Below, in pieces: positions 4,936 to 51,979 of a DNA stretch of 51,979 bases. The stretch lies in the IMG/VR virus record IMGVR_UViG_3300007734_000722, positions 1 to 51,979 of that record. The stretch is one strand, 5' to 3'. Position numbers and translations under genes: made by a program. Positions within the stretch are counted from its first letter, which is position 1, and every line of letters begins with the position of its first letter. Source of the DNA: a virus. The notes below the pieces were generated by a model. The model saw only the letters and a list, made by a program, of their open reading frames with translations, searched no databases and was not told where the DNA came from.

Positions 4936-6035
4936 TAGTTAATACCTGCGTTTATTGTATACCGAGATGCTGCTGTCAATGAGCCGGGTGGAAGTGGATT
5001 AGCTGCAAACGTAGTGACATCAGGGTTTATACACCACCTTATCAATCCTGATTCAGTCCATACATTCGTTGTAAGATTTGCCTCGACACCAAACATTGCA
5101 ACGTCACTTAGGCTATCTGCGTCCTGTGACCTAACAAATGTAACTTTGGGTACAGTAAATGCATCTCCACTGGAAGCGATTCCTACTAAGTATTTAATGC
5201 CTGTTGTAAGTATCTGTTCAGTGTCAAATGGTATATACATCGAACCTTGCTGACCTTGCCAATACGCAATTTGCGCAGATGGCACTCCACCATTACCCAG
5301 TGTTTTACTTGTAATCAATGTAGGTGGATAAGATGTTGCATTGTAGAGCCTAAGAGATGATGTCTGAAAATTAGCATTAGTAGCTATCGGAACTTGCACT
5401 CCTTGAAGTCTATATGTCCCACCCATTGAAGTTGGGACTGTAAATGCCGTACCAGCAAATCCAGCATTACCAAATGGTGGTGCTACGTTAGGCCAGTTTG
5501 AAGTTGAAACTGGGTATCCATATGACTGAGTAGCATCTGCTATTCCCCACCTAAATGGTTGCGTAGAACCACTTGACGATGTAAATGCAAATGGAGATCC
5601 AGACAATTGAGCGTAATCTCGTTTTGATTGTTGTTGACCTTGTACAACACTCAGTCCACCACTCCATGTGCCATAAGATTCAATCCCGATAGCATAAGTA
5701 GTTCCACGAGTAATACTTTGTGGCGTTGTTAGATTCCACCAAACAAAAGTCGGTGTTGAAATACCAGCCGTAACACTAATTGGATTTGCATCTGTATATG
5801 TTTTAGTCCCGGAATTTGGTGTATACCCAGAGACGTATTGCCACATCGCAATACGCACTGGAGGTGTTCCCGATGAACTATTTACACACATCCCAAACTG
5901 CGTAATAGTCATGGTTTTCTCTGCTGTAAAAACCATCATTACATATTGGCCAGTAGCACTAAAACCAAAACTAGGTTCCGACCCACTAGCTCCTTGGAAT
6001 ACTGTAGAAAACCGACCCATTACGTCTAGAATCAT
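4935..6035 (-). CDS. Two-lobed beta-sandwich appendage protein, first copy (366 aa)
   Basis: An open frame extends to an ATG at 6050, but the ATG at 6035 is preferred. It overlaps the upstream stop as ATGA and has GGGTGA seven bases before it, giving MILDVMGRFSTVFQG. The protein has two beta-rich lobes with ITRGTTYAIGIES in the first and LTTGIKYLVGIASS in the second, and Trp-rich strands (TFVWWNL, FRWGIAD). The architecture matches the protein at 2633-3745. Probably a receptor-facing or carbohydrate-binding tail protein; that function is inferred. Confidence 0.75.
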   Translation of the reverse strand: MILDVMGRFSTVFQGASGSEPSFGFSATGQYVMMVFTAEKTMTITQFGMCVNSSSGTPPVRIAMWQYVSGYTPNSGTKTYTDANPISVTAGISTPTFVWWNLTTPQSITRGTTYAIGIESYGTWSGGLSVVQGQQQSKRDYAQLSGSPFAFTSSSGSTQPFRWGIADATQSYGYPVSTSNWPNVAPPFGNAGFAGTAFTVPTSMGGTYRLQGVQVPIATNANFQTSSLRLYNATSYPPTLITSKTLGNGGVPSAQIAYWQGQQGSMYIPFDTEQILTTGIKYLVGIASSGDAFTVPKVTFVRSQDADSLSDVAMFGVEANLTTNVWTESGLIRWCINPDVTTFAANPLPPGSLTAASRYTINAGIN

Positions 6036-6292
6036 GACGCAATCACCCATACATCATCGGGATCACTAATAGAAAGTGAAGCAGTTTTGCCTGCTATTTT
6101 TTGCTCTGAATAATCCATAATCAATAAGGCCCGTAATAAATCTTTTATACGTGGTGTTATTGATTGACAATATTCTTGCAGTGCTGCGTCGTTGTCAAAC
6201 ACAATGCAATCAGATTCATTCCACCAGACAATTATGCGTCCGTCTGGCAGTTCATCAGCTTTAATCAGTTGTGTTGAATCTGAGTATGTCAC
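6032..6292 (-). CDS. Small acidic hypothetical protein (86 aa)
   Basis: Not recognised. A soluble, acidic 86-residue protein (GRIIVWWNESDCIVF near the N-terminus, then a helical middle IKDLLRALLIMDYSEQ and C-terminal DPDDVWVIAS). Both ends overlap neighbours by four bases (ATGA type), placing it firmly in the late operon between the holin-like gene and the appendage genes. The tryptophan-rich strand and position could fit a tail-associated chaperone or small structural protein, but nothing decides this. Confidence 0.65.
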   Translation of the reverse strand: MTYSDSTQLIKADELPDGRIIVWWNESDCIVFDNDAALQEYCQSITPRIKDLLRALLIMDYSEQKIAGKTASLSISDPDDVWVIAS

Positions 6293-10300: not shown

Positions 10301-11161
10301 CTACCGGATACCTAGTAATCGAGTGATACCAGACAATCGGTTCTGTGGGTTATTTTGCTGGGGTGGAACCATAGCATTTGCTGAGTCTCCACTACCAATT
10401 GGTGTTGGTGTGTTCTGTTGGTTGGATACCATGTCCACTAATTGGGGAACAAGTGATTCAACCAGTCCAGTAACTTGACGATGTACAGCAGCTGCTGCAT
10501 CCATTGGGTTCATACCTTGCTGGATTAAACTGTCCATTACATCTTGTGCGCGTGATGCATATGGAAACTGTTGCAGTGCCTGTTCACGTTGTTGCGAGAC
10601 CATATAGGAGTTCATCTGACTAACTACTTGGTCATAACGATACTTCTGGATCTCGGATTCAGCTTGTACACGAGCTAATTCTGGGTCCATGTAGTTATTG
10701 TTAACTTCATTTTGCCATCGCTCGCGAATTTGAGATTCTAAAGCTTGCTCTTGCTGTTGCTTGTATGCTTGTTGCACATCAGCAGCAGATTGAAAGCCAC
10801 TTTCCTCAAATTGCTTAATAACATCAGCCCATTTAGAGTACGCTTCCTGCGCATTTCTAAGCTGTTTTGCTTCATCGTTTACTTCTTTGAAGCGTTCGTA
10901 TGGTACATTTCCCGGTGTTTTTTCCGGTAATGCACTATCCAGTAAATGCTTTTTAACTCGTTCCTGCATGGAACTCTGATCAAAAACACTATCTGTTGTT
11001 TGTTGTGAAACGTCATTGCTGGATGTGGAACTGTTTAACGCCATGTCTCCACTATCGTTAGGACCGGCGGAATCTCTAACGAAATCAATTAACGCACCAC
11101 CTACATTGCCCGGTGCCGCTGCTGGCGAATCAGCGGTTCGTGTCACCATCTCTTCGGACAT
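10301..11161 (-). CDS. Scaffolding protein (286 aa)
   Basis: Highly charged, Gln-rich, predicted helical/coiled coil protein between portal and capsid, the usual place for a scaffold. Residues about 80-100 contain VPYERFKEVNDEAKQLR, a motif common near the start of the coiled coil in phage scaffolds. A Gln-rich helix (about 125-200) follows, and the tail NNPQNRLSGITRLLGIR is basic and could bind capsid. The ATG at 11161 is preferred to the GTG at 11167, given an AAAGG element ten bases before it. Confidence 0.8.
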   Translation of the reverse strand: MSEEMVTRTADSPAAAPGNVGGALIDFVRDSAGPNDSGDMALNSSTSSNDVSQQTTDSVFDQSSMQERVKKHLLDSALPEKTPGNVPYERFKEVNDEAKQLRNAQEAYSKWADVIKQFEESGFQSAADVQQAYKQQQEQALESQIRERWQNEVNNNYMDPELARVQAESEIQKYRYDQVVSQMNSYMVSQQREQALQQFPYASRAQDVMDSLIQQGMNPMDAAAAVHRQVTGLVESLVPQLVDMVSNQQNTPTPIGSGDSANAMVPPQQNNPQNRLSGITRLLGIR

Positions 11162-11182
11162 ATTCACTATACCTTTACTTTT

Positions 11183-17109: not shown

Positions 17110-20100
17110 CTATCTCTTCATGCCTCCCATTGCGCTACCAACAACTCCAACACCACTGATGATACCCATAGATCTACCGGGGCCGAATTTAGTTTTAGGC
17201 TTACTATCAGGTTGATACAGTCCAGCAAATGGAATCTTTCTTGGTTCTGCTTGCGGCACTGCGACGGTTGTTTTCTTTGCACCAACTGGTGCTGGTTTCC
17301 GATTAATTTTCTCACCACCAGCTGCAACTCTTTGGCCAGTCGTTGCACGTATATCTCTCGAATCAGCTTTACGCATTGTAGTAAGACCAGATTTTACGCG
17401 ATCAAAATTAATATTTTTAACCGACCCTTGAGATTTAGCTTTGGCTTCTAATGCTTTAAATTGATTAACAACATCCAATGGTCCATCTGCGTAAATCCAC
17501 CCTAAATCTGGGAAGAATGCTGTGTGGAAATATCTCTGCTTAGCTCGTCGTGCTTTACCTTCTTCCGCACTCTTATCTCTTGCCCTAGCAATAACCTCTT
17601 CAGTCGTAAGTTTTTCAACCTGATTTAATGGACGAGGAATATTTAATTCTGGACTTTTCACTAGTTCTCTGACTTGTGTGTCTATTGCTTCTTGAGAAGG
17701 TGTATAAGACCCAATGGTTTTAGATATCTTTTTACTTGCTTCTGTTTGAGCATCAGTATCATCATTTAATACAGCATCAATGTAGTCGCGTAGATTATCA
17801 CGCATTACAGCTGTTTCCGCGTTATTAGCGCCAAGTTCAGGGATAGATGATATTAAACCCTTCATAACCCTGTCGTGAGCAACTGCTCGTTGTTGATCAT
17901 TTTCAACACCAATACCAGCATCCATGTACTCGGAAGCCATATTGCGTATTGTTTGTTTTGCAGTTGTTGCTAATGTAAACATACGAGTCCTAGCGTCATC
18001 AGTTGCAGTCCGACCTGCTTCTCGCTCAATACCAGAAATCGCTGCACCTTCTGTGCCAGCTGATTGACCACGACTATTTGATGCGTTCATTGTCCAGCCA
18101 ACACGAGGATTTGGTCTCAGTAATTCACTCTCACCATACATGTCAACAAATGTAAGTAGATCACGTTGTTCTACCTTATTGGCTTTTTGCAGGAACATCT
18201 CAACAGACGAATTAGTAATACGTCCACGTTCATCTGGAATAATTCCTGTATGTTCCCATAACCATAATCTTCGTTCTTCAGAACCAGCTGCTTCTGGTAA
18301 AACGATGCGTTCTAGATGACGTGTGAACTCATGGACTTGAGAACGGATGTAGCTGGCATCTACATTATTTCCACGACCTGCGTCATTAGCTGCCCGTTGA
18401 ATTAAACCTGCTCTAGCTTGCTCTCCAGATGACTGTGCTTGAACTGTAAACCTATTATTACCAAACGGATCAGTGGCTCGTTGATACTTACCATCAACCA
18501 TTTCAAAAACTGGTACACGAACGTTACCTTTTTCGTCAGGCTTAACGGCTACTGGACTCATATTTGGAACAGGTCGCCCACGTGTATCTACTGGCACTAC
18601 CAGAACACTGTTAATTTTAGTAGTAGCTGCATCTGCTGCACCCTTAAAGTATCTGTTGATGTTAACACCGGGCGTATTAGTTACAGATGCGTATAACATA
18701 TCTGTAAGCTGTGCTACTTTACTTGCTGAGCCACTCGTCCTAATAGGTGCAGAATAATCAGGACCATCTTCAGTCATCCTAAATAAAAGATGTCGTCCAG
18801 CACCAGCTTTAACTACATCGTCAAGATCACCAAGTGCGCGATCACGAACGTCTTCCAATGCTTTCAATAACTCTGTAGAACCAGCAATTTTCTCCGTTGG
18901 GAGACGGTTATTATCTAAGTTAAAACGCAACTTACTAATGGTGTCATTAACACTATTTAGTGTCTCGTCAAATAGTGGGTCTACTGCTTTTTTATCTGGG
19001 CCATTAGTAACACTTGGTCGTAAGTACTTTTCAATGTCAGACAATACTGTTTGTATTTTCTGTTCATCTCCTGCTTCGGCAACAAATCCAATTTGAAAGT
19101 TGTTTTGCGCATCACGAGTTGTAATGCCGATTGTAGTAGGATCTGCCTTAAACTGACCAGCTAAACGTGCAACTAACTGTGGTCCTCGCATCTTTAATTC
19201 AGTTGAGTCAAACTTATCTGCAGCACGATTAAATGCACCACGTTGCGCTAAATAAGAATCAATTGCTTGCCGTCTAGACCCACCAGCACCTGTGATATCT
19301 TCTATTGCTAAAGGCAATACATTGCGATCTCTACCCTGTCCATCAATACCAGTAGTTTCACTTACACCAAATAATGTCTGGAGTTGATCGGTACTTGAAA
19401 ATGGTGCTAGTAATTGTGCTGCTCTCCTACTCTCTCCCGCATCTAACGCAGATTCAAGATCAGGCATCATTGCATCAAATTCAGCTTCCCTGCCTTGTGT
19501 GTCAAATGTAAACAATTCTCTCAATGCGCGTTTTACACCAAATGGAGCAGAAATGGAATCCATTAATGGCTTGCGAGATGGGTCGTCTGGTGCACCGGCT
19601 GTATCAATAATCTGCTTGAACATATTCTGTGTGTCAGTAACAGACATTGCTTGTTGTAATGGACGAGCAAATGCACGTCCCCATGGAGTATTTTGCAATG
19701 CTTGAAAACCAGACACAGACCCACTTTGCATTGCATCGTAAAAAGGCATAATGAATCTATTCATTAAACGCACAGTGCCTTGTCGTGCTGTTCTATTACC
19801 CGTCGCGCCACGCACTAAGTCATCAGATACAGAATCTAAACTATGTTTAACAACTTCTGCCAATGCACCATTAAGACCCTGCATTGATTGAACTGATTTA
19901 GAAATTGTGCCTTCGGCCCCACGCTTAAACATAAACCCAAAATCTGGATCATCTGCTAATTGTGATTCAATTCCATCACGATACATTTCCATTGTGGGAT
20001 CACCGCTAATAGCCATGTTGAAATAGCTTCTAGCTGTGTCAATATCAATCTCGTCAGATCGGCCAATTGCAGTCAAGTAACCTAAGCCAGCTTTAGCCAA

Positions 20101-21336
20101 TCTTTCAGATGCACTAGAGTTTAACTGCAATGTATCTTTACTTTTTAAAGTAGTATCTAAGATTTTGTATCCGGTGCTTTGCGTAATTGCTTGAGCATCA
20201 CCTAAAAACTTTTCAGCTGCTTTAGATGTGGCATCGCGCAGTATCTGTACATTTTTAGCACTTAATAACGGCTTACCATATGTGCGTTGATACTCTGCAA
20301 GCACAGTATCCAATGGCTTCCCATATGACTGTGCAGCAATCTTCTGGAACTCAGGCGTATTTGTTACATCAATACCAAGTGCAGCAATTTCACCAATCGT
20401 AGCTTTTTGTAAATTTGCACCACGCTGGCGTAACAAAGATACTTCTCTATCAAGTTGACTTTTTGTTGCTTGCATTAAAGTAAAAGGATTATTAGAGCCA
20501 CTACCTTTACGTATTGTGTCTCTAATACGCTGGTCAACTTGTTTAGTAGATGCAATATTACGAGGACCCATTGCTAGTGGGTCTTCCATTATCTTTAACT
20601 TACCAACCTCTTGGAATCTGGCTTCCGAATCGGACATCGTCTTAGGCGCAATACTTGTCATACCTTGACCAAAATTGGCACGGTTACTTGCACCGAGATC
20701 CCGATTTAAATCTTGTTGTGTAATCTCACCAGCTTGATAAGCAGCTTGTAAATCAGCGTCTGCTCTAGCGCCAGCCATTAAGTCATCAGCAGATGTGCGA
20801 GGAGATGGACCAGCCCCCTGCCCTGTAGGACGAATATCTTTAATTCGTGTTTGAGCGTCTTCTGTAGGCTCTACGCCAGTTTGCGCTACTGTTTCTTCAA
20901 GTACAAGATCACGACCCTTAGTCTTTACAATCTTGTTACCTTGCGCATCTAATGTCGGAACAAAAGTCCTATTCTGTGTAATAGGATCTACTTCGTATTT
21001 GCCCTCATACTCTGTATATGCTGGCATTGAACCGCCTTGTTCAGATCGCCAGTCATAAGCAGGAAGAGGAGCCTGTGTCTTAGGATTAACTGGCCCTCGA
21101 CCACCCTTGAGTAGATTCATCAATGCACGAGCTGCATCCTGAGTACTTGCGCCTTGCGTCGGTGGTTGTGGACCGGCTCCACCAGTACCTTGCTGGGCTG
21201 GAGTTACTGCTGCTGGTGATACTGGCATCTGCGGTGCAGGGGGTTGCGTTGGTGGTTGTGCGGGAGTTGAAGGTGCATTTGTTGCAGCTTTCTTCTTCTC
21301 ATCATCCATCATCATATTCATTAACGCAGATGCCAT
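17110..21336 (-). CDS. Giant internal virion protein with C-terminal glycine-zipper tag (1408 aa)
   Basis: Starts MASALMNMMMDDEKKKAATN, then a Pro/Gln/Thr-rich linker (residues about 20-80). The long helical, polar body has no recognised enzyme motif. Segments such as FIMPFYDAMQSGSVSGFQAL and repeated charged helices resemble large ejection proteins of podoviruses. The last 19 residues, MGIISGVGVVGSAMGGMKR, belong to the tag family shared with genes at 21.7-24.5 kb. No polymerase signature of an N4-type virion RNA polymerase was seen. Probably packaged in the capsid and delivered with the DNA; this is inferred from size, composition and neighbours. Confidence 0.65.
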   Translation of the reverse strand: MASALMNMMMDDEKKKAATNAPSTPAQPPTQPPAPQMPVSPAAVTPAQQGTGGAGPQPPTQGASTQDAARALMNLLKGGRGPVNPKTQAPLPAYDWRSEQGGSMPAYTEYEGKYEVDPITQNRTFVPTLDAQGNKIVKTKGRDLVLEETVAQTGVEPTEDAQTRIKDIRPTGQGAGPSPRTSADDLMAGARADADLQAAYQAGEITQQDLNRDLGASNRANFGQGMTSIAPKTMSDSEARFQEVGKLKIMEDPLAMGPRNIASTKQVDQRIRDTIRKGSGSNNPFTLMQATKSQLDREVSLLRQRGANLQKATIGEIAALGIDVTNTPEFQKIAAQSYGKPLDTVLAEYQRTYGKPLLSAKNVQILRDATSKAAEKFLGDAQAITQSTGYKILDTTLKSKDTLQLNSSASERLAKAGLGYLTAIGRSDEIDIDTARSYFNMAISGDPTMEMYRDGIESQLADDPDFGFMFKRGAEGTISKSVQSMQGLNGALAEVVKHSLDSVSDDLVRGATGNRTARQGTVRLMNRFIMPFYDAMQSGSVSGFQALQNTPWGRAFARPLQQAMSVTDTQNMFKQIIDTAGAPDDPSRKPLMDSISAPFGVKRALRELFTFDTQGREAEFDAMMPDLESALDAGESRRAAQLLAPFSSTDQLQTLFGVSETTGIDGQGRDRNVLPLAIEDITGAGGSRRQAIDSYLAQRGAFNRAADKFDSTELKMRGPQLVARLAGQFKADPTTIGITTRDAQNNFQIGFVAEAGDEQKIQTVLSDIEKYLRPSVTNGPDKKAVDPLFDETLNSVNDTISKLRFNLDNNRLPTEKIAGSTELLKALEDVRDRALGDLDDVVKAGAGRHLLFRMTEDGPDYSAPIRTSGSASKVAQLTDMLYASVTNTPGVNINRYFKGAADAATTKINSVLVVPVDTRGRPVPNMSPVAVKPDEKGNVRVPVFEMVDGKYQRATDPFGNNRFTVQAQSSGEQARAGLIQRAANDAGRGNNVDASYIRSQVHEFTRHLERIVLPEAAGSEERRLWLWEHTGIIPDERGRITNSSVEMFLQKANKVEQRDLLTFVDMYGESELLRPNPRVGWTMNASNSRGQSAGTEGAAISGIEREAGRTATDDARTRMFTLATTAKQTIRNMASEYMDAGIGVENDQQRAVAHDRVMKGLISSIPELGANNAETAVMRDNLRDYIDAVLNDDTDAQTEASKKISKTIGSYTPSQEAIDTQVRELVKSPELNIPRPLNQVEKLTTEEVIARARDKSAEEGKARRAKQRYFHTAFFPDLGWIYADGPLDVVNQFKALEAKAKSQGSVKNINFDRVKSGLTTMRKADSRDIRATTGQRVAAGGEKINRKPAPVGAKKTTVAVPQAEPRKIPFAGLYQPDSKPKTKFGPGRSMGIISGVGVVGSAMGGMKR

Positions 21337-21346
21337 ATCAATACCT

Positions 21347-21661
21347 CTACTTGCTACTCTTGGAGTTAAATAAAGCTTTCGTCATAGGAGCAGATCCTTT
21401 AGGTGCTGCGCTTTTTGATTTAGCTGGAGATTTTGTAGTAGGTTTTCCACTACTATCAAATTGGCGACCATCAACCTTACCTTTTTGATAAGACTGAAAT
21501 TCCTTATTACCAGCAGTCTTGTTCTTAGCTTCTTCGCGAGCAAGCATAGCAGTTCCTGCTGCACCTGCACCTACTAACATTCCTTGAGCACGACCTACAC
21601 TACGACTGTTACGTGGCCAATTCGCTTGGAATTTGGCTGACTTACCGGGACCTTGTGGCAT
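21347..21661 (-). CDS. Small basic protein with internal glycine-zipper segment (104 aa)
   Basis: Very basic protein (MPQGPGKSAKFQANWPRNSR, C-terminal KSKSAAPKGSAP). Residues about 28-42 are QGMLVGAGAAGTAML, a close relative of the C-terminal tag of neighbouring proteins but here internal and followed by a charged helix (AREEAKNKTAGNKEF). It sits 10 nt before the 1408-aa gene and 1 nt after the 419-aa gene. No enzymatic motif. Likely DNA-associated or membrane-active virion protein of the same set. Confidence 0.65.
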   Translation of the reverse strand: MPQGPGKSAKFQANWPRNSRSVGRAQGMLVGAGAAGTAMLAREEAKNKTAGNKEFQSYQKGKVDGRQFDSSGKPTTKSPAKSKSAAPKGSAPMTKALFNSKSSK

Positions 21662-21662
21662 T

Positions 21663-22922
21663 CTATCTTTTCCTTCCTTGCATTGCTGTTCCAGCAGTTG
21701 CAGCTCCTGTCAGTATATTAAACATGCGACCCTTAAACCATTTTCGCTTAGACGGGTCTGGTTGTTTTAAGTCATCTTCCATAAACTGCAACTCTGTTTT
21801 AGCCATACGTTCATTAAGCTTTTTCTGTGAACGAGATGGCATTGTAGATTTTTTCACTGATTTGTTTTGCGCTTCAATCTGGCGGACAACCGGATCATTT
21901 TTATCTAACTTAGGACGCATTGTGTTATCTTCCGTAAACCCCGGAAGTGTAAGTCGAGGATCCATAATAATTCCTGATGGTGTTTCAGGAGCAAGGAACC
22001 TAGCTAACCAAGGCGTGGCTTCTTTTCTTGCTGCCATTCGTTCTTTCATGACAGCAATATTTTGATCATTAATTGCAGATCTAGCCATTGGATTACCACC
22101 TGCAATAGATGGATCAATTGTCCCAGCTTGAAAATCTGGTTCTATTTTCCCACTCAATGATTGCAATATACGTGTTACTAATGCGTCTTTAGCGACAGGT
22201 GTTGTTTCTAAATTTTTAGTTCGTGATTCTTCCCAGTCAACACGCTTTGGTTTTTCTGGGACCCGCTGTGGTTCTGGTGGTGTAATTAAATCTTTTGCTT
22301 CTGGCGTTAAAGAATTATACAGGTCTTTACGTAAACCCATAATACTACGCAAATGACGTGGTAAGTTATCCCACTTAGTTTCAAATTCAGCATTACGTAA
22401 TGCTTGAACTAATTCTGGGCTTTCTTTATATGAACGGGATGATTCATCTAATAGACCATCTTCATTGTAACCATATACTGTTTGATCTTGATCACGCAGA
22501 TATTCTTGTCTTTTAGTGATCTCTTCTGGTGATGCCGTATTCATCCAAATTGGATCATTTAATTCACGTGAATATTTTTGATACAGAAGGTTGTATCGCT
22601 TAGGTTGTGTTTCAACAATTGAATTGTATTGTTGCGGGTACCTGTTAGCGGCTCCAGATATAAAAGCATTTTCACCGTTAAATGCAATGTCCGGTCTACG
22701 GATAAATTCATCTATTGACCAACGTGGTCTATTATATGTACTTATTGCACCTTCATGGGTTGGGTAGTTGTAGATGCTTTGTTTTTGTGCCATTGTCAAA
22801 TTATTTGTATTGCCAAAAAACACTTCATCAAGTTTATTTCTGTCAGATTGATTCAGACCTTTACGCATATTAAAGTAAAAGTCAAACCAAGGTTCATTTG
22901 GATCACGGCCATCTGGTTCCAT
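21663..22922 (-). CDS. Candidate internal virion protein with C-terminal tag (419 aa)
   Basis: Not recognised as an enzyme. Rich in Asn, Arg, Pro and Tyr (RWSIDEFIRRPDIAFNGENA; RYPQQYNSIVETQPKRYNLL). The final residues MFNILTGAATAGTAMQGRKR match the tag of the neighbouring genes with some changes, keeping the G-x-x-x-A-G-x-A-M core and the basic end. The stop lies 1 nt before the 104-aa gene. Probably packaged with the other tagged proteins. Confidence 0.65.
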   Translation of the reverse strand: MEPDGRDPNEPWFDFYFNMRKGLNQSDRNKLDEVFFGNTNNLTMAQKQSIYNYPTHEGAISTYNRPRWSIDEFIRRPDIAFNGENAFISGAANRYPQQYNSIVETQPKRYNLLYQKYSRELNDPIWMNTASPEEITKRQEYLRDQDQTVYGYNEDGLLDESSRSYKESPELVQALRNAEFETKWDNLPRHLRSIMGLRKDLYNSLTPEAKDLITPPEPQRVPEKPKRVDWEESRTKNLETTPVAKDALVTRILQSLSGKIEPDFQAGTIDPSIAGGNPMARSAINDQNIAVMKERMAARKEATPWLARFLAPETPSGIIMDPRLTLPGFTEDNTMRPKLDKNDPVVRQIEAQNKSVKKSTMPSRSQKKLNERMAKTELQFMEDDLKQPDPSKRKWFKGRMFNILTGAATAGTAMQGRKR

Positions 22923-22925
22923 GAG

Positions 22926-23318
22926 TTACCTCTTTTTATTACCCATAGCACTACCTGCAGTACCTATGCCGAGTAACATACCAAATGTTTTTCGTGGGCT
23001 TGCACGTAAAGACACCATTCCTTTAGCTAACGAGCTAGGCCCACGCGCAGCATTATTTTTACCTTCACGCGACATTGGTGGGTTTTCTCGCGGATCAATA
23101 CGTCCATACGTCTGCTTCTCTTCACCACCGTAGTAGCCACGCTTCCTGTTCTCCAACTGGTTAGTTATTCGCATTAAATAACCATCTTGTGTTTCGTTTG
23201 GACGAACAGGAGGCGGTTCTATGCCAAAGGACCTCCACTTATCTAAGGTTGATTGAGTCCTTAATGATATTTTCTGAGGTCTTCCAGATGGCGACGTAAA
23301 TTTAAATTCTTGATCCAT
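22926..23318 (-). CDS. Small tagged protein, start revised (130 aa)
   Basis: The frame extends to 23363, but that would overlap the upstream gene by 41 nt. The ATG at 23318 (MDQEFKFTSPSGRPQKISL) lies 4 nt after the upstream stop and is preferred, although its ribosome site is poor and coupling is likely. Basic, Pro-rich body, then a C-terminal FGMLLGIGTAGSAMGNKKR tag. Two charged regions (ENRKRGYYGGEEKQTYGR) suggest nucleic acid or scaffold contact. Function unknown. Confidence 0.65.
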   Translation of the reverse strand: MDQEFKFTSPSGRPQKISLRTQSTLDKWRSFGIEPPPVRPNETQDGYLMRITNQLENRKRGYYGGEEKQTYGRIDPRENPPMSREGKNNAARGPSSLAKGMVSLRASPRKTFGMLLGIGTAGSAMGNKKR

Positions 23319-23322
23319 CCAG

Positions 23323-24105
23323 TTATCGTTTCTTTGTACCCATTGCGGAACCAGCTGCACCAATACCTAATAACATACCCATTGTCTTTCTTTTTGGTGC
23401 GGCTTTTGATGTACTTGCTGGTGTTGCTGCTGCCTTTCGTGTAGCCAGTTGTTTACGCATTTTAGCTGTCTGATCACTTGTGTAATCATTCATGTAATCA
23501 CGTGCTTCGCCACGACCGAGTGAGATACTTTGTTTTGCAGCCTTTGAAAACTGACCTGCCTCTCGTCGTTCTGCAGCACTCATTGGTCCACCCAATGATT
23601 CAACAGCGCTCTTATATAATTTGCGTTTTGTAAATTCTGTTTTTGCTGCTCCGAAATGATAGTTTGCTCGTGGACTTGTAGTTTCCGTTGTATTTTTACT
23701 TCGTGTTGTTGGTCGTGTCGGCCTAGCTGCCGATGGTTTTAAATCTTCTAACCTAGACTTTGCGGCTTCAGTTGCTACACCGGGGTCGTTTATTCTGAAA
23801 TCATTCGGGTAGAAAGTGACGCCATAACTATGACCAAACATCGATTTACTTTTAGGTTTAGGTTTACCTTTAATTGATGCTGACGGTATAAAACTAGAAT
23901 TTGAAATAGCTGATCTACTTAAACCCATGGATGGTGCTTCTGATTGATATCCAGCAGCAGACATCCCACCTTGGTTGTTTGATTTTGATCCAAACGTAGT
24001 ATTTCCACGTGACGTTCCAACACTTCGTGTAACTGCACCTTTTTTACGTGCAGCAACGGCATCCGCCCGTCGTTTATCTCCGGGTCTATTTTGATCTTCT
24101 GGCAT
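23323..24105 (-). CDS. Basic tagged protein (260 aa)
   Basis: Strong ribosome site (AAGGAGA, 8 nt) before ATG 24105. Lys/Arg/Ser/Thr-rich, low-complexity protein (RPTRPTTRSKNTTETTSPRA), with repeated short basic blocks and few hydrophobic residues until the end. The last 19 residues are MGMLLGIGAAGSAMGTKKR, the clearest copy of the tag. A disordered basic body plus glycine-rich hydrophobic end suggests a DNA-condensing or membrane-inserting cargo protein; inference only. Confidence 0.7.
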   Translation of the reverse strand: MPEDQNRPGDKRRADAVAARKKGAVTRSVGTSRGNTTFGSKSNNQGGMSAAGYQSEAPSMGLSRSAISNSSFIPSASIKGKPKPKSKSMFGHSYGVTFYPNDFRINDPGVATEAAKSRLEDLKPSAARPTRPTTRSKNTTETTSPRANYHFGAAKTEFTKRKLYKSAVESLGGPMSAAERREAGQFSKAAKQSISLGRGEARDYMNDYTSDQTAKMRKQLATRKAAATPASTSKAAPKRKTMGMLLGIGAAGSAMGTKKR

Positions 24106-24122
24106 AGCTATATCTCCTTTTC

Positions 24123-24461
24123 CTAACGTTTCTTACCACTCATTGCTGATCCAGACGCGCCAATACCTAGTAATAAACCCATTGTTTTGCGTTTTGGACC
24201 TTCAAACCGTGCATTACGTGCTCTAACTCTAGCAACATGGTCGTCCATGCGTTTAGTTGTAGCTGCGGAATAGTCTTCTACGCGCTTTGTAGTAGCTGCA
24301 GACCATTCATTAGTACGCTTCTCAGCAGAACCCGGTGATGTTTTTAATTTTGCCACAGCAGCTCGTTTATCTGCACGATATGCAGCATCCGCTGTCTTTT
24401 TATCTGCAGCAAATTTAGAAGCTTCAGATTTTGTTGCACCTAATGGCTTGACTTGTGGCAT
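24123..24461 (-). CDS. Small basic tagged protein (112 aa)
   Basis: Starts MPQVKPLGATKSEASKFAAD, an Ala/Lys-rich helix-former (KKTADAAYRADKRAAVAKLK). The middle has an imperfect tandem of VEDYSAATTKR and MDDHVARVRAR-like units (ATTKRVEDYSAATTKRMDDH). It ends in MGLLLGIGASGSAMSGKKR, a further tag copy. Located 17 nt upstream of the 260-aa gene. The start MPQVK resembles the MPQVL start of the 341-aa protein, which could be chance. Confidence 0.7.
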   Translation of the reverse strand: MPQVKPLGATKSEASKFAADKKTADAAYRADKRAAVAKLKTSPGSAEKRTNEWSAATTKRVEDYSAATTKRMDDHVARVRARNARFEGPKRKTMGLLLGIGASGSAMSGKKR

Positions 24462-24464
24462 TAT

Positions 24465-24674
24465 TTAATATCCTTTACACCCACAGTTAGCTTTTCCACA
24501 CTTAGGGCACTTCTTGCCTTTACCGTATTCAGCTTTTTCATGTTTAGCCATTGCCTTTGGCGCTAAACCTTTTTTGCTATACTCTTTCTTCTCCATTGAA
24601 GCCATAGCTTTCTTCATGCCAGCATGACCGCCAATCTTCATGCCCATCATCTGTCCCATTGATTGTTTTCTCAT
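24465..24674 (-). CDS. Met/Lys-rich protein with C-terminal zinc knuckle-like motif (69 aa)
   Basis: The N-terminus RKQSMGQMMGMKIGGHAGMK is glycine/methionine-rich and weakly recalls the neighbouring tags. Lys-rich middle (KKAMASMEKKEYSKKGLAPK) and a Cys cluster CPKCGKANCGCKGY at the end, with four Cys able to hold one zinc. The upstream DUF6321-like gene overlaps it by 4 nt. Possibly a nucleic-acid-binding virion protein; not recognised as a named family. Confidence 0.65.
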   Translation of the reverse strand: MRKQSMGQMMGMKIGGHAGMKKAMASMEKKEYSKKGLAPKAMAKHEKAEYGKGKKCPKCGKANCGCKGY

Positions 24675-24922
24675 TTACAGTTCCACGCTCTCAAAGATTT
24701 ATTAATCCTACTATTAGGATCATTGGCGGTTTTTGTGGACGTATTCTTGGCTTTCATGCCAGACATTCGGGCACAAAAAGAGGCACGACGACCAGCGTCT
24801 GCCTTTGTTTTTGGGTTTGGAGCTGGAGGTTTTAAGTTAGCTCCAGTTGTGCGTTTAAAGTGCGCACGTCCAGCCGCGTTTAATCCGCCAGCTGGATTTT
24901 GATATTTTTTAACGACTCCCAT
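24671..24922 (-). CDS. DUF6321-like small basic protein (83 aa)
   Basis: Residues 9-40 (NPAGGLNAAGRAHFKRTTGA, then NLKPPAPNPKTKADAGRR) and SFCARMSGMKAKN resemble a conserved basic domain recalled as DUF6321, found in phages and some cellular genomes, of unknown function. The C-terminus DPNSRINKSLRAWNC is typical of that group. AGGTGA lies five bases before ATG 24922. It is the first gene of the late minus-strand block after the ssb terminator. Family name is from memory and should be tested by profile search. Confidence 0.6.
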   Translation of the reverse strand: MGVVKKYQNPAGGLNAAGRAHFKRTTGANLKPPAPNPKTKADAGRRASFCARMSGMKAKNTSTKTANDPNSRINKSLRAWNCK

Positions 24923-26291: not shown

Positions 26292-26372
26292 TGCCTCAGA
26301 CGGGACTCGAACCCGTACGTCTTGCGACAACAGATTTTAAGTCTGTCGTGTCTGCCATTTCACCACCGAGGC
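26292..26372 (-). tRNA. tRNA-Leu (anticodon UAA)
   Basis: Cloverleaf on the minus strand: acceptor GCCTCGG/CTGAGGC (one G-T pair), anticodon stem ACAGA/TCTGT around loop CTTAAAA with anticodon TAA, a short variable arm with hairpin, and T arm ACGGG-TTCGAGT-CCCGT. Discriminator A, no encoded CCA. Reads UUA leucine codons, which an AT-leaning phage uses often. Confidence 0.93.
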
Positions 26373-26507: not shown

Positions 26508-26885
26508 TGTTATTATTGCCGTCGCAGTAATCTTCTTTTTTTTGGTCCCGCCAAAGTATTCATATGATCCAAGTGTTTTCATGACTTCCACGTTGAGTGT
26601 TGTTGGTGATTTATCCGTCTTTACATGGACTAATCTCCGTCCGTATTTATCTGCCTTTTGAAGTACTTCAATGCTAAAACGTTCAGCTGTATTTTGCCTT
26701 GAGGTAAACCAGTTCTTTGCTGCCTCCGCCGCAGCTTTACCTTCTGTAGTGTTCTTCTCTGGTGTGTCCACGCCAAAGAGACGACAGTGCTGATCCACAA
26801 GCCAAATACCAAAACCGAGATCAATGTCGCAAACGAAAGTATCTCCGTCGATGAGGCGCTTAAAGCGAATACCATATTCATACAT
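26493..26885 (-). CDS. Staphylococcal nuclease-like (thermonuclease) protein
   Basis: 130 residues with SNase family motifs: FKRLIDGDTFVCDIDLGFG at residues 8-26, RLFGVDTPE at 35-43 (Arg and Glu catalytic positions), and KYGRRLVHV with the second catalytic Arg. Calcium-dependent DNA/RNA phosphodiesterase is the family activity; no signal peptide, so it would act in the cytoplasm, e.g. on host DNA or during recombination. Start overlaps the upstream stop as TAATG. Confidence 0.82.
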   Translation of the reverse strand: MYEYGIRFKRLIDGDTFVCDIDLGFGIWLVDQHCRLFGVDTPEKNTTEGKAAAEAAKNWFTSRQNTAERFSIEVLQKADKYGRRLVHVKTDKSPTTLNVEVMKTLGSYEYFGGTKKKKITATAIITEAPL

Positions 26886-27271
26886 TAACGATGTCTCGCT
26901 GCTTTCTGTGCAACTGTACGTGGTTGCGCTACAAACTGTTTACCTGCGCGATTACCGGCTGCTTTAGCCCTATTGGTGGAGGCGATCTCACTCTTAGACA
27001 ATGAACCCCATGCCTTATCTGGCAAGTATCTTTTGGTTCCATTAGACGGAGTCCCATCGCTAGTACGCCATTTCTGGTCAGTCCATTTAGACAGACTATT
27101 ATCACTGGACTTAGGGCCTACGTATGACCCACCAGATGACTTGTACTGTTGTGTGGCAAGTTGTGCTTTACGTGCTGACCACTCACCGGGATCACCACCT
27201 TTAGTCCCTGCTTTTACACTAGCGACGATGCGTTTCCATTTAGCTGGATCTCGTTTAGTTGCTGTAGCCAT
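26885..27271 (-). CDS. DUF5872-like basic protein (128 aa)
   Basis: Contains KWKRIVASVKAGTKGGDPG, EWSARKAQLATQQYK, SDNSLSKWTDQKWRT and KRYLPDKAWGSLSKSE, a pattern recalled for DUF5872, a basic domain seen in phages and giant viruses, function unknown. Very high Lys/Arg/Ser content suggests nucleic acid binding. No ribosome site is visible; TATAAT ends 5 nt before the ATG, pointing to a leaderless mRNA. Start shared with the terminal bases of a small frame. Confidence 0.7.
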   Translation of the reverse strand: MATATKRDPAKWKRIVASVKAGTKGGDPGEWSARKAQLATQQYKSSGGSYVGPKSSDNSLSKWTDQKWRTSDGTPSNGTKRYLPDKAWGSLSKSEIASTNRAKAAGNRAGKQFVAQPRTVAQKAARHR

Positions 27272-27476: not shown

Positions 27477-27548
27477 CTCCTACTGCTGGGATCGAACCAG
27501 CGACCATCCGGTTAACAGCCGGACGCTCTACCGCTGAGCTAAGTAGGA
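27477..27548 (-). tRNA. tRNA-Asn (anticodon GUU)
   Basis: 72-nt cloverleaf on the minus strand: acceptor TCCTACT/AGTAGGA perfect, D arm GCTC-AGCGGTA-GAGC, anticodon stem TCCGG/CCGGA with loop CTGTTAA (GTT), T arm GCTGG-TTCGATC-CCAGC, discriminator G, no encoded CCA. It reads AAC/AAU. The stop codons of the two overlapping frames upstream lie 8-13 nt before its 5' end. Confidence 0.95.
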
Positions 27549-46408: not shown

Positions 46409-49400
46409 CTATTTCTGCATATCTAAAAACTCTTCGTATGAAATTTCCGGAAGAGTAGCACGACCTTGCTGTTCTTTAACCTTTTCCTTCATGCGTTCTG
46501 GCCTTGGCTTTGAAACGTCTATCAGTTTTTGTGTAGGCATTCCCGGTAATGGTATAGATTGTGTACTTCCAATTCCACGAGTACCTATATCTCCAGTTTC
46601 AGGAATACCAGACCATAGAGCACCAAGTCCAAAATTACTAATAACCTCAAAAATATTTGGATAGTCGTATTCAAATTCCTTTTTGAGCCTAGTGATATCA
46701 GCAACCGAAATACCATCCTTAGACATTCTTGGTATAGTCGTGTCTAATCTAGTATTGTAATACTCGTTTTCCATCCCAATAAATCGCATCCAGTTAGCAG
46801 CAGTATGGTTGTATGTTGCATCATCAACATACATCATGCGCTCGATGTCGTTCATCATTTTCTGAATAGGTACCATCTGCCCATTCATTGCAGCTCGACT
46901 CATACCATTAGGGTATGTCATCTTAAGCAATGCTAACTGAGGAGCAAATGGACCAGCCTGAGAAATTAGTTCATCTGAATGCGCTAAGAAATATGTCCAT
47001 CCCGGATGTTGTTGGTATGTTGCAGCATTAAATATATTTGTCTTGCCAACCAACTGATCCCTCAATGCCGTATACATTGGGTTAGCCCTAGATGTAACTT
47101 CTGTACCAAATAATGCCGAACCAGCTGCTTCAGCAAATGAAGAACCATTTTTCATGTTCCTCTGCATTTGCATATATGGCTGCATTAAAAACCTATTCCA
47201 TCCCATAACAATAGGAGGACCTTGCATTTCCATATTGCCAAAGGTAACCACCTTACCCGGACCCGCTTCTGGTTGTGCTGGGTCAACTTTAGATTCCTCC
47301 ATCAATTGTTTAATCTTAGATATCTGATACCACTGAGTTTGCTTTCCTTGGCTAGCCAAATACATTCTGCTCTGAATAATGTTTTGAGCTTGTAATGCAA
47401 ATGCAAACATAGCAGCAGTAGCACCAGCAGAAGCTAAGAATCTTGTTAAGTAATAAGCAAATGGAGCGTTCTTCCACTCTCCACTAGCCGTCTTTACTTG
47501 ACCGATAGCGGAAAGGAAATTGTGATATGCACCTAAGTTGATGGTGTTATAACCAACGCCTTTGAAAAACTTCTTCCAGACAGGACGTAAAGCTCCGTTG
47601 ATAGCATAACCAAGCGCCAACTCTGGAATCATAGGCAACAAGGTAAATGCTTTCAATGATTTACCCCAGTTAGGCGCAGTAAAAAATGCTTGGGATCGAT
47701 ATTGAATTGTACGCATGACTGGATGAATTAATACATCCTCACCTACAGGAGATCCTGAAATAGTATTTATGATGCGAGCAAAGTTACGTTTTAATTTCCC
47801 TTGCTCATATGGGATAGTTCCTACAGTGCCTCCAAATCTTAATGACGCAAGTTCATCACGATCCACAATACGAGCCTGCTCTAAAAACTGTTTGATGCGC
47901 AATAAGTCAGTTGATAAAGTACCGCCTCGTTCAGTCATTCCAACAAACGGTATTAATCGTTGACCAATCACACCACCACCTAGATTTTCTGCTCCAGTTA
48001 GCTGTATAGGAATATCTTTTAATTCAATCAATGGATTCATAGCCTTGATTGCAGATGCTGCTGCGTACCACTCGCCATAGGTAGTAGATAAGCCAAATTC
48101 ATTTAAGTCTTCAATTGTATAACTGCGCTTGCGACCTAGTTCTTTGTCGTACATACCTTCAATTCGAGCTTTGTTTTTAAATGGTATAAATCCAACACCA
48201 ACTTTACTACCAACAGTTCCGTATCTTTTTAAAATCCCTTCAATGACTCTGTGGTACATCATGTCACCAAGAGCCACAGGGATTTCTTTTCCACCTACAT
48301 TAATTGCACGTTGATGACCAAACAGTTTTTGGAATATAGTTCCCTTGCCATTATGTCCACGTGGGAACCACAGGTTTGGCATCATTCCCATCAATCCATA
48401 AAACTGCATGCCAAAATCTTTAGGTCGCCCTGCTGTTAGTGCAAAGTTCTGAATAAATGGTCTAGCAAAGTCACGACTCAAACGCTTTACAACTTCCCAA
48501 CCTGATAGCTCGGTCCATGCATCCATAACCATACGCCAAACAGGATAGTCAGGAGGCAACTGGTTGGTTGGCATAGTAGCACCATTGCCATTCGGTAAAT
48601 TGTTAAGTCGATCAACTTCTGTTGGGCTTGTGCTAAACATTGTTTGAATAATGTCTGCATACTGCTTGTCAGGAATAGTAATGTGTACATCATTCCCATC
48701 AACAGCAATACCGACTTGGTCTACATCGGAATGTTTCTTTAAAACAATATTTTCTGGCTGCCTATTTACACTGACACGTTTGTCAATATCCTCTAAGCGT
48801 TGTTGCCTCCACGCAGATTCGACTTCTTCATTACCAACAGCCTCTGCTGGTAGATCCTGTAATCCACGGACAAGTTCCATTTCTAAATCACTAAATGGTT
48901 TTCCGCTTTCATCAATTAAGTCTCCAGATGACATCCATGTACCAGACCTCTTATTGTTTACAACCGCAGATTGCAACATAGAGTATGTCTGATCACCCTG
49001 CCCTACAGTTACAGAGTTAACCTTATACTGGGATGCCATCTGTCTTTTCCATTGCTGATTAATCTGCTCTGGATTGGTTCGCTGAGCGCGAGCAATAAGC
49101 ATTTTAGCAATGAATACCTCTGGTCTAATAATTGATGTATTTCGGATGCGTTCAATGGACTCGTAGTTTTCAGTATTTGCAGTGTCAAAATACTGGTGCA
49201 TAGCCATTGCCATTAAATAAGACGGACTCTGATTCAATACACGTTGATTGTTCACCTCAGTTATTGAGCCATCTTCTCCTGTGACATGATAGAAACCCTT
49301 GTAAGGATTATTTACTGGATAAACGTTGTATCGTTGGCCAGTCTCTAAAAAGTCTTTTGTGGGAGCTTTGGTGATTTTGTACAAATTAATACCAAGCTCA

Positions 49401-51979
49401 CCACTTGAAGTTCGATAATCCTTCTCACGTACGATCACAATTCCCTTAGAGTCTATACTTAATTGCTCAAGTTCAAGTTTACTAAGTGAACGCATAATAG
49501 AATCTGTTTGAGTAACGTTTAGCGCATCTCCATTAGTTTGCATTCGGACTATCGCGTCAGGATTATAAAGCGGATATCTATTGCTGTGTACGTCAGCTTT
49601 AATAATCCTGCCCGGTTGCAAATAATCAGGACCTATATTGGTGACTTCATTTGTCAAAAAGTTAACTTGTAACATTCTGCCAGAAGCATCAACAATGCGT
49701 ACCTTTCCATTGTCAGCAAATGCACCAGAAGGCAATGAGTACCGTTGCCAGTTATATCTAGCATTTGCAATGACTCGCTCTTGCAGGTCAAGGATACTAG
49801 CAGTACTAGTCACAAGGCGTAATGCTTTAGCCCTCTCGTTTTCATTGAGACTACTTAATCTATCCAGAAATTCAGATTTGCCAACAAAGTTGTTCCGCCC
49901 AAAAACAACATCCATTGTTCTGTGTAGTACGTATCCTGCACCATTAATCTGATGTGGGCGACCATCGAGTTCAATTGGTTGATTAGTAGCCACAGCGGTA
50001 AGTAAGTTGTTAATCTGAGTCATGCCGACAAAACTGTCACTGCCACCTATGCGATTTGATCCAAGTATGTATTCAAAAATAGGCAATACACTGCGAGATG
50101 CTGTTCCTTCAATATAATTGAGAGATAACTGTTGCTCCTCTGGTATGCCACTGTTAAATTCATCAAGAACTTGCTTGACTCTTTCTTCAACAGGACGCGC
50201 TGCTTCCTTTGCAGATGCTTTATTAACAGGTTTTACATACATTGCGGAGTAAAGACTTCGGAAGAATTCATCCTGCGCATCTACAATAAATGTATCCAAC
50301 TCAGTAAATGGAACACCAGATGCTAAACCCTTTTGTCGCAACGCATCCTCTAATGAACGCGAGAAGTTTGAAAGAGCATTGTATTCTGGAGTGCCATAGG
50401 CAATCTTAAATGAATCATTCTCAAATGCACCATGCCTAGAATCTTTAAGTGCATGCCTAAAGATTCCTTCTCGTTGCATATACTCAGCAATTGGCCCAAT
50501 AGAAAATGTATTCAGCCTATCTAAATACATCAAACCTTCTTCTGTATATGCGCCATTCACGTCCATCATCTGACGGCTACGCATAATTTCTAAGACGGTG
50601 TTTTCAAATGTGTTACGACCTGCAACGATTGGTGCATACATGTCTACACCAGCAGCTCGAACATCCTTACCTTGATCTGCATGATATGCAGCAATACGTT
50701 GCGTTGGCGTGAACTGATCACGTGTGTCAGTTTTAAAATCAGCAGGAGTACCTGTAAATAGTTTGCTTTCAAGGTTAAGTTGATCCTGATACGAATGATA
50801 GTCAGATATAGCTCTAGTGACAGTATCAATCTTGCTATTCATGTCATAAAGGACGGCACTAAACTTAGGATTAAAATCGCCCGTGTATCCTAATAACTGC
50901 GGATTATATGTAGAATCCATCATGTCATTTGCTGAGACTAGGAATCGTGCTGTTCCAGTAAAACGACTTGATGTGCGTGGTCTGTTCCTGTCACGTATAG
51001 CAACAGTTACTGGTGCCTCAATTACAAAATATGCATCTGCATTTGGGACAGTGGTGTAACGATCATCAACTTTACCGTCCTCATCTGCAACATCAGAAAC
51101 TGCAAATCGCGTATTAAAAAATCCACTATCAGTAACGCCATCGTTATCCTTCATGCTCACGAAATCAAACTGCTTGCCACCAATGGTGTACGCAAAAACT
51201 GTTTGTCTTGTGTAATCATTTTTGTTGCGCAACACAACCTTATCAACAATGCGACCATTATGAGGTTGACCCCATTGTGTTGATTCAGCATTCATTTGAG
51301 TTAAATATTCACTACCAGCAGGAATGGTGAAAAACTCTACCTCACCACCTTCCATAGCTAACTGATGTATGTATGAGATGGCCTTGCTATTATCAAATGG
51401 AACACTAACGTTACGAGTTATTAATTGCCCATCGGAATTTTTGACAGTGTACTCAACCTTAAACCCAAACTTATGGTGCACTGAATCAGTTTGACCAGTA
51501 GACATCCACATTCCGAGCAAATCATTTACATTGAAGATGTTGTGGGCATCAGTTTGCATACGACCCTTGTTTGGAATAAGCATGCGTACATAATCGCCTT
51601 GCCGTACAGCAGGATACTGTATGGATCGCTTACGCCCAGTAACGTATGTTGCTGTAGGAATTGGAGCCGACCATGCTTTATGTGGACGACCACGTTCTAA
51701 TATAATGTCAGCCGGACTCTGCCGTGCTAGCTGTGTCCACATACTACGAATAGGAGCAGCAACCTGTTGAAATATTGCAGCAGCATCTGTATCTACAGCA
51801 CGTGAAGGATTATCAGATATAGGTTCACCGAAATCAGCAATAAAGTTCTGTAATGCAACAGCAAACATTTCGTGTGCAGAGTTAAACCAATCAGTCTGCA
51901 TTAATCGAATTCTGTCTTCACTAATACCTTGCTCGCGCCATAGATCTACAGCTTCATCGCTACGCCATTTTGTGCTAAG
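46409..51979 (-). CDS. Giant candidate internal virion protein, N-terminus beyond window
   Basis: The frame is open to base 51979 (26 further codons upstream of the first ATG at 51901, reading e.g. WRSDEAVDLWREQGISEDRI), so at least 1857 residues are visible and the N-terminus is missing. Body contains large helical, polar regions and, near the C-terminus, two hydrophobic segments (FTLLPMIPELALGYAINGAL and FLASAGATAAMFAFALQAQN). No polymerase, lysozyme or protease motif seen. Size and membrane-seeking end fit an ejected podovirus inner protein. The stop lies 12 nt after the endolysin start region on the same strand. Confidence 0.75.
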   Translation of the reverse strand, partial: LSTKWRSDEAVDLWREQGISEDRIRLMQTDWFNSAHEMFAVALQNFIADFGEPISDNPSRAVDTDAAAIFQQVAAPIRSMWTQLARQSPADIILERGRPHKAWSAPIPTATYVTGRKRSIQYPAVRQGDYVRMLIPNKGRMQTDAHNIFNVNDLLGMWMSTGQTDSVHHKFGFKVEYTVKNSDGQLITRNVSVPFDNSKAISYIHQLAMEGGEVEFFTIPAGSEYLTQMNAESTQWGQPHNGRIVDKVVLRNKNDYTRQTVFAYTIGGKQFDFVSMKDNDGVTDSGFFNTRFAVSDVADEDGKVDDRYTTVPNADAYFVIEAPVTVAIRDRNRPRTSSRFTGTARFLVSANDMMDSTYNPQLLGYTGDFNPKFSAVLYDMNSKIDTVTRAISDYHSYQDQLNLESKLFTGTPADFKTDTRDQFTPTQRIAAYHADQGKDVRAAGVDMYAPIVAGRNTFENTVLEIMRSRQMMDVNGAYTEEGLMYLDRLNTFSIGPIAEYMQREGIFRHALKDSRHGAFENDSFKIAYGTPEYNALSNFSRSLEDALRQKGLASGVPFTELDTFIVDAQDEFFRSLYSAMYVKPVNKASAKEAARPVEERVKQVLDEFNSGIPEEQQLSLNYIEGTASRSVLPIFEYILGSNRIGGSDSFVGMTQINNLLTAVATNQPIELDGRPHQINGAGYVLHRTMDVVFGRNNFVGKSEFLDRLSSLNENERAKALRLVTSTASILDLQERVIANARYNWQRYSLPSGAFADNGKVRIVDASGRMLQVNFLTNEVTNIGPDYLQPGRIIKADVHSNRYPLYNPDAIVRMQTNGDALNVTQTDSIMRSLSKLELEQLSIDSKGIVIVREKDYRTSSGELGINLYKITKAPTKDFLETGQRYNVYPVNNPYKGFYHVTGEDGSITEVNNQRVLNQSPSYLMAMAMHQYFDTANTENYESIERIRNTSIIRPEVFIAKMLIARAQRTNPEQINQQWKRQMASQYKVNSVTVGQGDQTYSMLQSAVVNNKRSGTWMSSGDLIDESGKPFSDLEMELVRGLQDLPAEAVGNEEVESAWRQQRLEDIDKRVSVNRQPENIVLKKHSDVDQVGIAVDGNDVHITIPDKQYADIIQTMFSTSPTEVDRLNNLPNGNGATMPTNQLPPDYPVWRMVMDAWTELSGWEVVKRLSRDFARPFIQNFALTAGRPKDFGMQFYGLMGMMPNLWFPRGHNGKGTIFQKLFGHQRAINVGGKEIPVALGDMMYHRVIEGILKRYGTVGSKVGVGFIPFKNKARIEGMYDKELGRKRSYTIEDLNEFGLSTTYGEWYAAASAIKAMNPLIELKDIPIQLTGAENLGGGVIGQRLIPFVGMTERGGTLSTDLLRIKQFLEQARIVDRDELASLRFGGTVGTIPYEQGKLKRNFARIINTISGSPVGEDVLIHPVMRTIQYRSQAFFTAPNWGKSLKAFTLLPMIPELALGYAINGALRPVWKKFFKGVGYNTINLGAYHNFLSAIGQVKTASGEWKNAPFAYYLTRFLASAGATAAMFAFALQAQNIIQSRMYLASQGKQTQWYQISKIKQLMEESKVDPAQPEAGPGKVVTFGNMEMQGPPIVMGWNRFLMQPYMQMQRNMKNGSSFAEAAGSALFGTEVTSRANPMYTALRDQLVGKTNIFNAATYQQHPGWTYFLAHSDELISQAGPFAPQLALLKMTYPNGMSRAAMNGQMVPIQKMMNDIERMMYVDDATYNHTAANWMRFIGMENEYYNTRLDTTIPRMSKDGISVADITRLKKEFEYDYPNIFEVISNFGLGALWSGIPETGDIGTRGIGSTQSIPLPGMPTQKLIDVSKPRPERMKEKVKEQQGRATLPEISYEEFLDMQK

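Follow-up and report, generated by a model that had tools for sequence, protein, structure and literature searches.

The window analyzed here is the whole of an IMG/VR virus record (IMGVR_UViG_3300007734_000722; 51,979 bases). Five of its proteins, although dissimilar, carry the same Gly/Ala-rich peptide with a basic end at their C-termini (tag A, Table 1), and a tag-like helix is present inside a 104-aa protein of the same region. A sequence-only reading had pointed out these five C-termini and the internal relative, and all of them were confirmed in position on the minus strand. The description of the proteins as otherwise unlike each other was also correct: their bodies are dissimilar and matched no PHROG or Pfam family. 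The tagged block has SSB-like and DUF6321 genes to one side and terminase genes to the other. When 11,018 same-genome pairs of C-termini from the window and its relatives were compared, all pairs scoring at least 34 were accounted for by tag A, a second related tag (tag B) or paralogues.

Table 1. Positions of tags and related segments in the window and, for tag B, in related loci
Feature	Position	Strand	Gene	Sequence or remark
Tag A, C-terminus of 1408-aa protein	17113..17169	-	17110-21336	MGIISGVGVVGSAMGGMKR
Tag A, C-terminus of 419-aa protein	21666..21725	-	21663-22922	MFNILTGAATAGTAMQGRKR
Tag A, C-terminus of 130-aa protein	22929..22985	-	22926-23318	FGMLLGIGTAGSAMGNKKR
Tag A, C-terminus of 260-aa protein	23326..23382	-	23323-24105	MGMLLGIGAAGSAMGTKKR
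Tag A, C-terminus of 112-aa protein	24126..24182	-	24123-24461	MGLLLGIGASGSAMSGKKR
Internal tag-like helix of 104-aa protein	21542..21583	-	21347-21661	GMLVGAGAAGTAML
C-terminus of 104-aa protein	21350..21385	-	21347-21661	MTKALFNSKSSK
N-terminus of 69-aa Cys-rich basic protein	24639..24659	-	24465-24674	MGQMMGM
C-terminus of 288-aa scaffold-like protein	10304..10333	-	10301-11167	SGITRLLGIR; proposed template of the tag core
Tag B proteins			L063:3053-4769; L064:421-831 and 5469-6140; L047:5268-5855	

Among the tagged proteins, the small ones are basic, with pI values of 10.5-10.7. The 130-aa protein, for which a family alignment (A2) was made, begins at an ATG within an ORF listed at 145 aa with a TTG start. 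Orthologues of the 419-aa protein are present in the related loci L008 and L020, and the body of the 112-aa protein was found in this genome only. The 1408-aa protein is large and mostly helical according to its predicted fold (residues 209-1408, pLDDT 73.5, pTM 0.41), in which the tag portion falls below confidence. No informative match to it, including to known ejection proteins, was detected in the PDB by either sequence or fold; its best structural match was A0A6J5NHX9, a protein of an uncultured phage.

Several other features of the window were recorded. An 83-aa basic DUF6321 protein (24671-24922) shows 70-96% identity in the relatives listed; a DUF6321-like protein occurs near the coat gene of Pelagibacter phage HTVC104P (L169:9854-10138), and in PHROGs larger proteins are found with the domain fused at their ends. 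A 128-aa basic protein (26885-27271) with a weak DUF5872 match is conserved in relatives, and an 1830-aa protein (46409-51901) had no Pfam or PHROG match. Genes for tRNA-Leu(taa) (26292-26372) and tRNA-Asn(gtt) (27477-27548) lie between the structural and early regions.

Relatives were collected by a terminase search, which yielded 80 related loci, and by a second such search, which yielded 80 that partly overlapped with the first. Orthologues of the 1408-, 130-, 260-, 419- and 104-aa proteins occupy the equivalent place in these relatives, and those of the 1408-aa protein share the N-terminal start MASALMNMM. The C-terminal tags, those of the 1408-aa orthologues included, vary from genome to genome and agree inside one genome across dissimilar proteins. 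This genome specificity, which the sequence-only reading missed, extends to the last residues: xKR in five window proteins, xNR in four of L008, GKR in three of L029 and xGR in four of L020, with a pair ending in AKK also matched within its genome, and two proteins of L021 both ending in GALLGIAGVINAS[AS]KRR. Among about ten distinct genomes with enough tags, and with families set by orthology and position (in part by eye), cross-family tag similarity within genomes was 51.9, compared to 23.1 +/- 3.2 after shuffling (0 of 10,000 permutations). With shuffles confined to close relatives, the expected value was 45.6 (p=0.00015); the window and L008 by themselves, for which few arrangements are possible, gave p 0.06. 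The tag of the window 1408-aa protein scored 46-63 against the tags of its unrelated neighbors vs 42 against that of its own orthologue in L008. Exceptions were L010, L013 and L014, in which the tag of the large protein is not the best match to those of the small proteins. In addition, several tags of L020 and L027 are not glycine zippers.

The tag pattern was not found outside this phage group in a search of 2.9 million viral contigs. No cultured relative was detected with either the DNA or the 1408-aa protein as query, and terminase and portal had only distant cultured relatives; the three inspected (HTVC104P, RHph_N3_13 and Shocker) have no shared tag. A terminase search of bacterial genomes yielded no host. 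The possibility that, in L023-L028, small tagged proteins had become fused into the large proteins (1743-1795 aa) was rejected, as blastp gave it no support. Two adjacent proteins of L041 (3070-3723 and 4172-4726) share both body and C-terminus (LAAGLGSLTRMIR...) and appear to be ordinary paralogues.

The head genes of the window are arranged as TerS-like, TerL, portal, 288-aa protein and coat, and matches to SU10-type adaptors occur on the tail side. In P22, the head genes are likewise ordered small and large terminase, portal, scaffold and coat. The 288-aa protein is predicted to be helical with disordered ends and a loose linker ahead of its C-terminal end. It had no database match as a scaffold and its predicted fold had no PDB match; synteny and the predicted helices suggest that it is the scaffold. 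In an alignment of 28 homologues (A6), a Pro/Gln-rich linker is followed by a conserved end, [ILVF][STAG]xL[LM]GI, in which Leu284, Gly286 and Ile287 are invariant.

This scaffold-like end resembles the first half of the tags. A position matrix was built from scaffold ends alone and used to scan the last 24 residues of every other ORF. At 10 bits it matched 12 families, compared to 2.2 expected (0 of 250 shuffles); at 11 bits the numbers were 11 and 1.2, and at 12 bits 8 and 0.6. Nine of the 12 families are tagged or tag B proteins in the block upstream of terminase, and the other three are small and apparently unrelated. The top single match was the large protein of L026, whose end ITQLLGIAPAL may be compared with ITRLLGIR of the scaffold, and a bridging case was provided by a 160-aa protein of L063 ending in VSKLMGVTNKK, the scaffold of the relative L047 having LSQLMGITNR. 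Some tag copies fell below the matrix threshold, and the core is weak in several tags (the 1408-aa protein of the window, the 1414-aa protein of L008 and the large proteins of L010, L013 and L014).

Tag B is the second form of the tag and occurs in more distant relatives; an example is SYPRQSKVSKLMGVTNKK in L063, compared with scaffold ends such as SLSQLMGITNR. Its consensus, [S/A]Y[PAS]xQ[SG]xMSKLMGVxxKK, is scaffold-end-like and is found at the C-termini of dissimilar basic proteins. Orthologues of the 104-aa protein end in FTKALMK or ITKALGIKK, like the scaffold end ITRLLGIGR (tag B), and the internal helix of this protein resembles the tags of its own genome, a likeness that is partly specific beyond kinship. 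The 104-aa protein may be an adaptor. Its family also has a conserved GKxxGRQ motif after the helix, and in L010, L013, L014 and L097 it forms the C-terminal portion of a larger basic protein (364-383 aa). The MGQMMGM start of the 69-aa protein, whose relatives begin with TMSQMMGM or TISQMMGM, is possibly an N-terminal version of the core; enrichment of N-terminal copies of the core was not significant when tested by family. The same protein has a zinc-ribbon-like end (CPKCGKANCGC). In L067, L070, L073 and L084, 343-345-aa proteins immediately upstream of terminase have scaffold-core-like N-termini (NLLSDLLGI or similar).

Taken as a whole, these observations are best explained if the tag is a C-terminal capsid-loading signal, composed of a scaffold-end-like first half and a glycine-rich second half that packs with like helices, and we consider this reading probable. 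The LLG[IMV] core would dock where the scaffold end docks, as suggested by the statistics of the scaffold-only motif. The glycine-rich second half and the basic end would pack on the same helices where these occur in the other tagged proteins or the 104-aa protein; such packing is suggested because tags match within each genome, whereas from one genome to the next the scaffold end is almost constant and so does not explain covariation of the second half. Packing with like helices would in turn keep tags matched within each genome. The tagged proteins would be inside virions, with these sites and helices as their putative binding partners. Of the three functions proposed from the sequence alone, capsid loading is the best supported, given the likeness of the tag core to the end of the scaffold-like protein, and that interpretation as a whole is partly supported.

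Helix-helix docking had been proposed as a separate function, and it is plausible for the glycine-rich second half because the tags and the internal helix of the 104-aa protein match within a genome. In its full form, the tagged proteins would join one complex through their glycine-rich helices with the 104-aa protein as a hub, and the likeness to the scaffold would be incidental or the contact with it indirect. GxxxG-type spacing, the match of tags and 104-aa helix per genome, and variability of the tag where the scaffold end does not vary are consistent with this possibility. However, a motif derived only from scaffolds selects tagged C-termini far beyond chance, the match between 104-aa helix and tags exceeds kinship only in part, and the non-zipper tags of L020 and L027 do not fit, making docking as the sole function rather unlikely.

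A membrane-inserting segment, which had also been suggested, would be used on ejection into the host envelope and form a channel. A stretch that is hydrophobic, rich in Gly/Ala and basic at its end would suit such a role, as would the size and helical character of the 1408-aa protein, since ejection proteins can be of this kind. However, a membrane span requires a mean hydropathy above ~1.6 over about 19 residues, and none of the 30 tags reaches this: their uncharged runs are 8-18 residues and their maximum 19-residue hydropathy is 0.18-1.07. A membrane segment would also not predict a genome-specific match down to the last three residues, and we regard this role as improbable.

A further alternative is a mobile segment of C-terminal coding sequence, spread and homogenized by recombination and with little function; codon usage bears on it. 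The Ser of GSAM was reported to be encoded by AGT, TCC and TCA, which is correct (130-, 260- and 112-aa proteins, respectively), and the 1408-aa protein has AGC. In all ten pairs of window tags, the same codon was used at 38 of 103 shared non-Met/Trp residues, whereas codon usage predicts 39.5. Synonymous codons are thus randomized among the window copies, which excludes recent copying, and codon identity at the level of chance with residues kept implies that the peptide is maintained by selection in this genome, as had been proposed. Most tag pairs of L020 also show codon identity near chance with residues kept. Codons were shared above chance in L021 (15 of 19 identical in the 130/260 pair), L097 (12 of 16), L029 and the 1408/419 pair of L008 (10 of 12), indicating occasional copying of tag DNA from one gene to another. 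DNA copying therefore accounts for part of the within-genome matching in some genomes. As a general account, recombination of a segment with little function is very improbable, given the selection required by the window and L020 pairs and the placement of the tag in frame at the extreme C-terminus of at least five dissimilar gene families. Equally improbable is a degradation or host-targeting signal acting during takeover (a C-degron, or polar or cell-surface sorting): C-terminal location, hydrophobic core and basic end follow the general layout of sorting signals, but a conserved sorting motif is absent ahead of the hydrophobic part, no cellular families were matched and the likeness to the scaffold end would be left unexplained.

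The capsid-loading reading has partial precedents, and the earlier statement that no described phage system with this layout was known was too strong. No description of the layout was found in the open-access papers searched. In T4, the capsid targeting sequence (CTS) of the internal proteins IPI-III and Alt is a short terminal peptide common to dissimilar proteins of one phage. It loads them into the head core; these head proteins are frequently basic, and their genes show fast turnover among relatives (PMC9026906, PMC5694885). The small tagged proteins are likewise basic, as T4 internal proteins are. However, the CTS is N-terminal and is removed by the gp21 protease, whereas the tag is C-terminal, glycine-rich, genome-specific and related to the scaffold end; no prohead protease was detected in Pfam and PHROG scans of part of the ORFs. 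The second precedent is CpmB of SaPI1, which copies the C-terminal RIIK helix-and-hook of the 80alpha scaffold and attaches to the coat protein at the same site (PMC5644958). As in that mimic, a scaffold-type C-terminal motif is common to the tagged proteins and the scaffold-like protein of the phage. CpmB, however, serves a satellite element as an alternative scaffold and alters capsid size, whereas here several non-scaffold proteins of one phage bear the motif, together with a glycine-rich half.

P22 has the same head gene order as the window. Its ejection proteins gp7, gp16 and gp20 require the scaffold gp8 for loading (PMC8402733, PMC12005531). For gp7 and gp20, loading is assigned to an N-terminal region, and the parts of the literature covered describe no shared terminal tag on the P22 proteins. 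Scaffold-dependent loading in P22, the T4 CTS and the RIIK end of CpmB/80alpha make each step of the proposed mechanism plausible. By analogy, the tag would best be explained as working like both the T4 CTS and the CpmB/80alpha scaffold motif while belonging to neither. Encapsulin cargo-loading peptides are also C-terminal and direct cargo into a capsid-like shell; these systems have neither phage head nor scaffold, and the comparison with the tag is one of layout, not sequence.

How podophages choose the proteins of the head interior is largely open; P22 needs its scaffold, and the literature covered describes no simple signal. A C-terminal signal that can be read from sequence would allow internal proteins of uncultivated phages to be listed, and the tag would be a natural counterpart of engineered cargo loading by scaffold tails. 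It also offers a compact case of one short peptide evolving in coordination on several dissimilar proteins. More tentatively, the tag may belong to an address system for the head interior, in which numerous unrelated cargo proteins bear a terminal peptide derived from the coat-binding end of the scaffold and a rapidly changing half is unique to each phage. If so, this second, lock-and-key half would prevent cargo of different phages from mixing in one cell.
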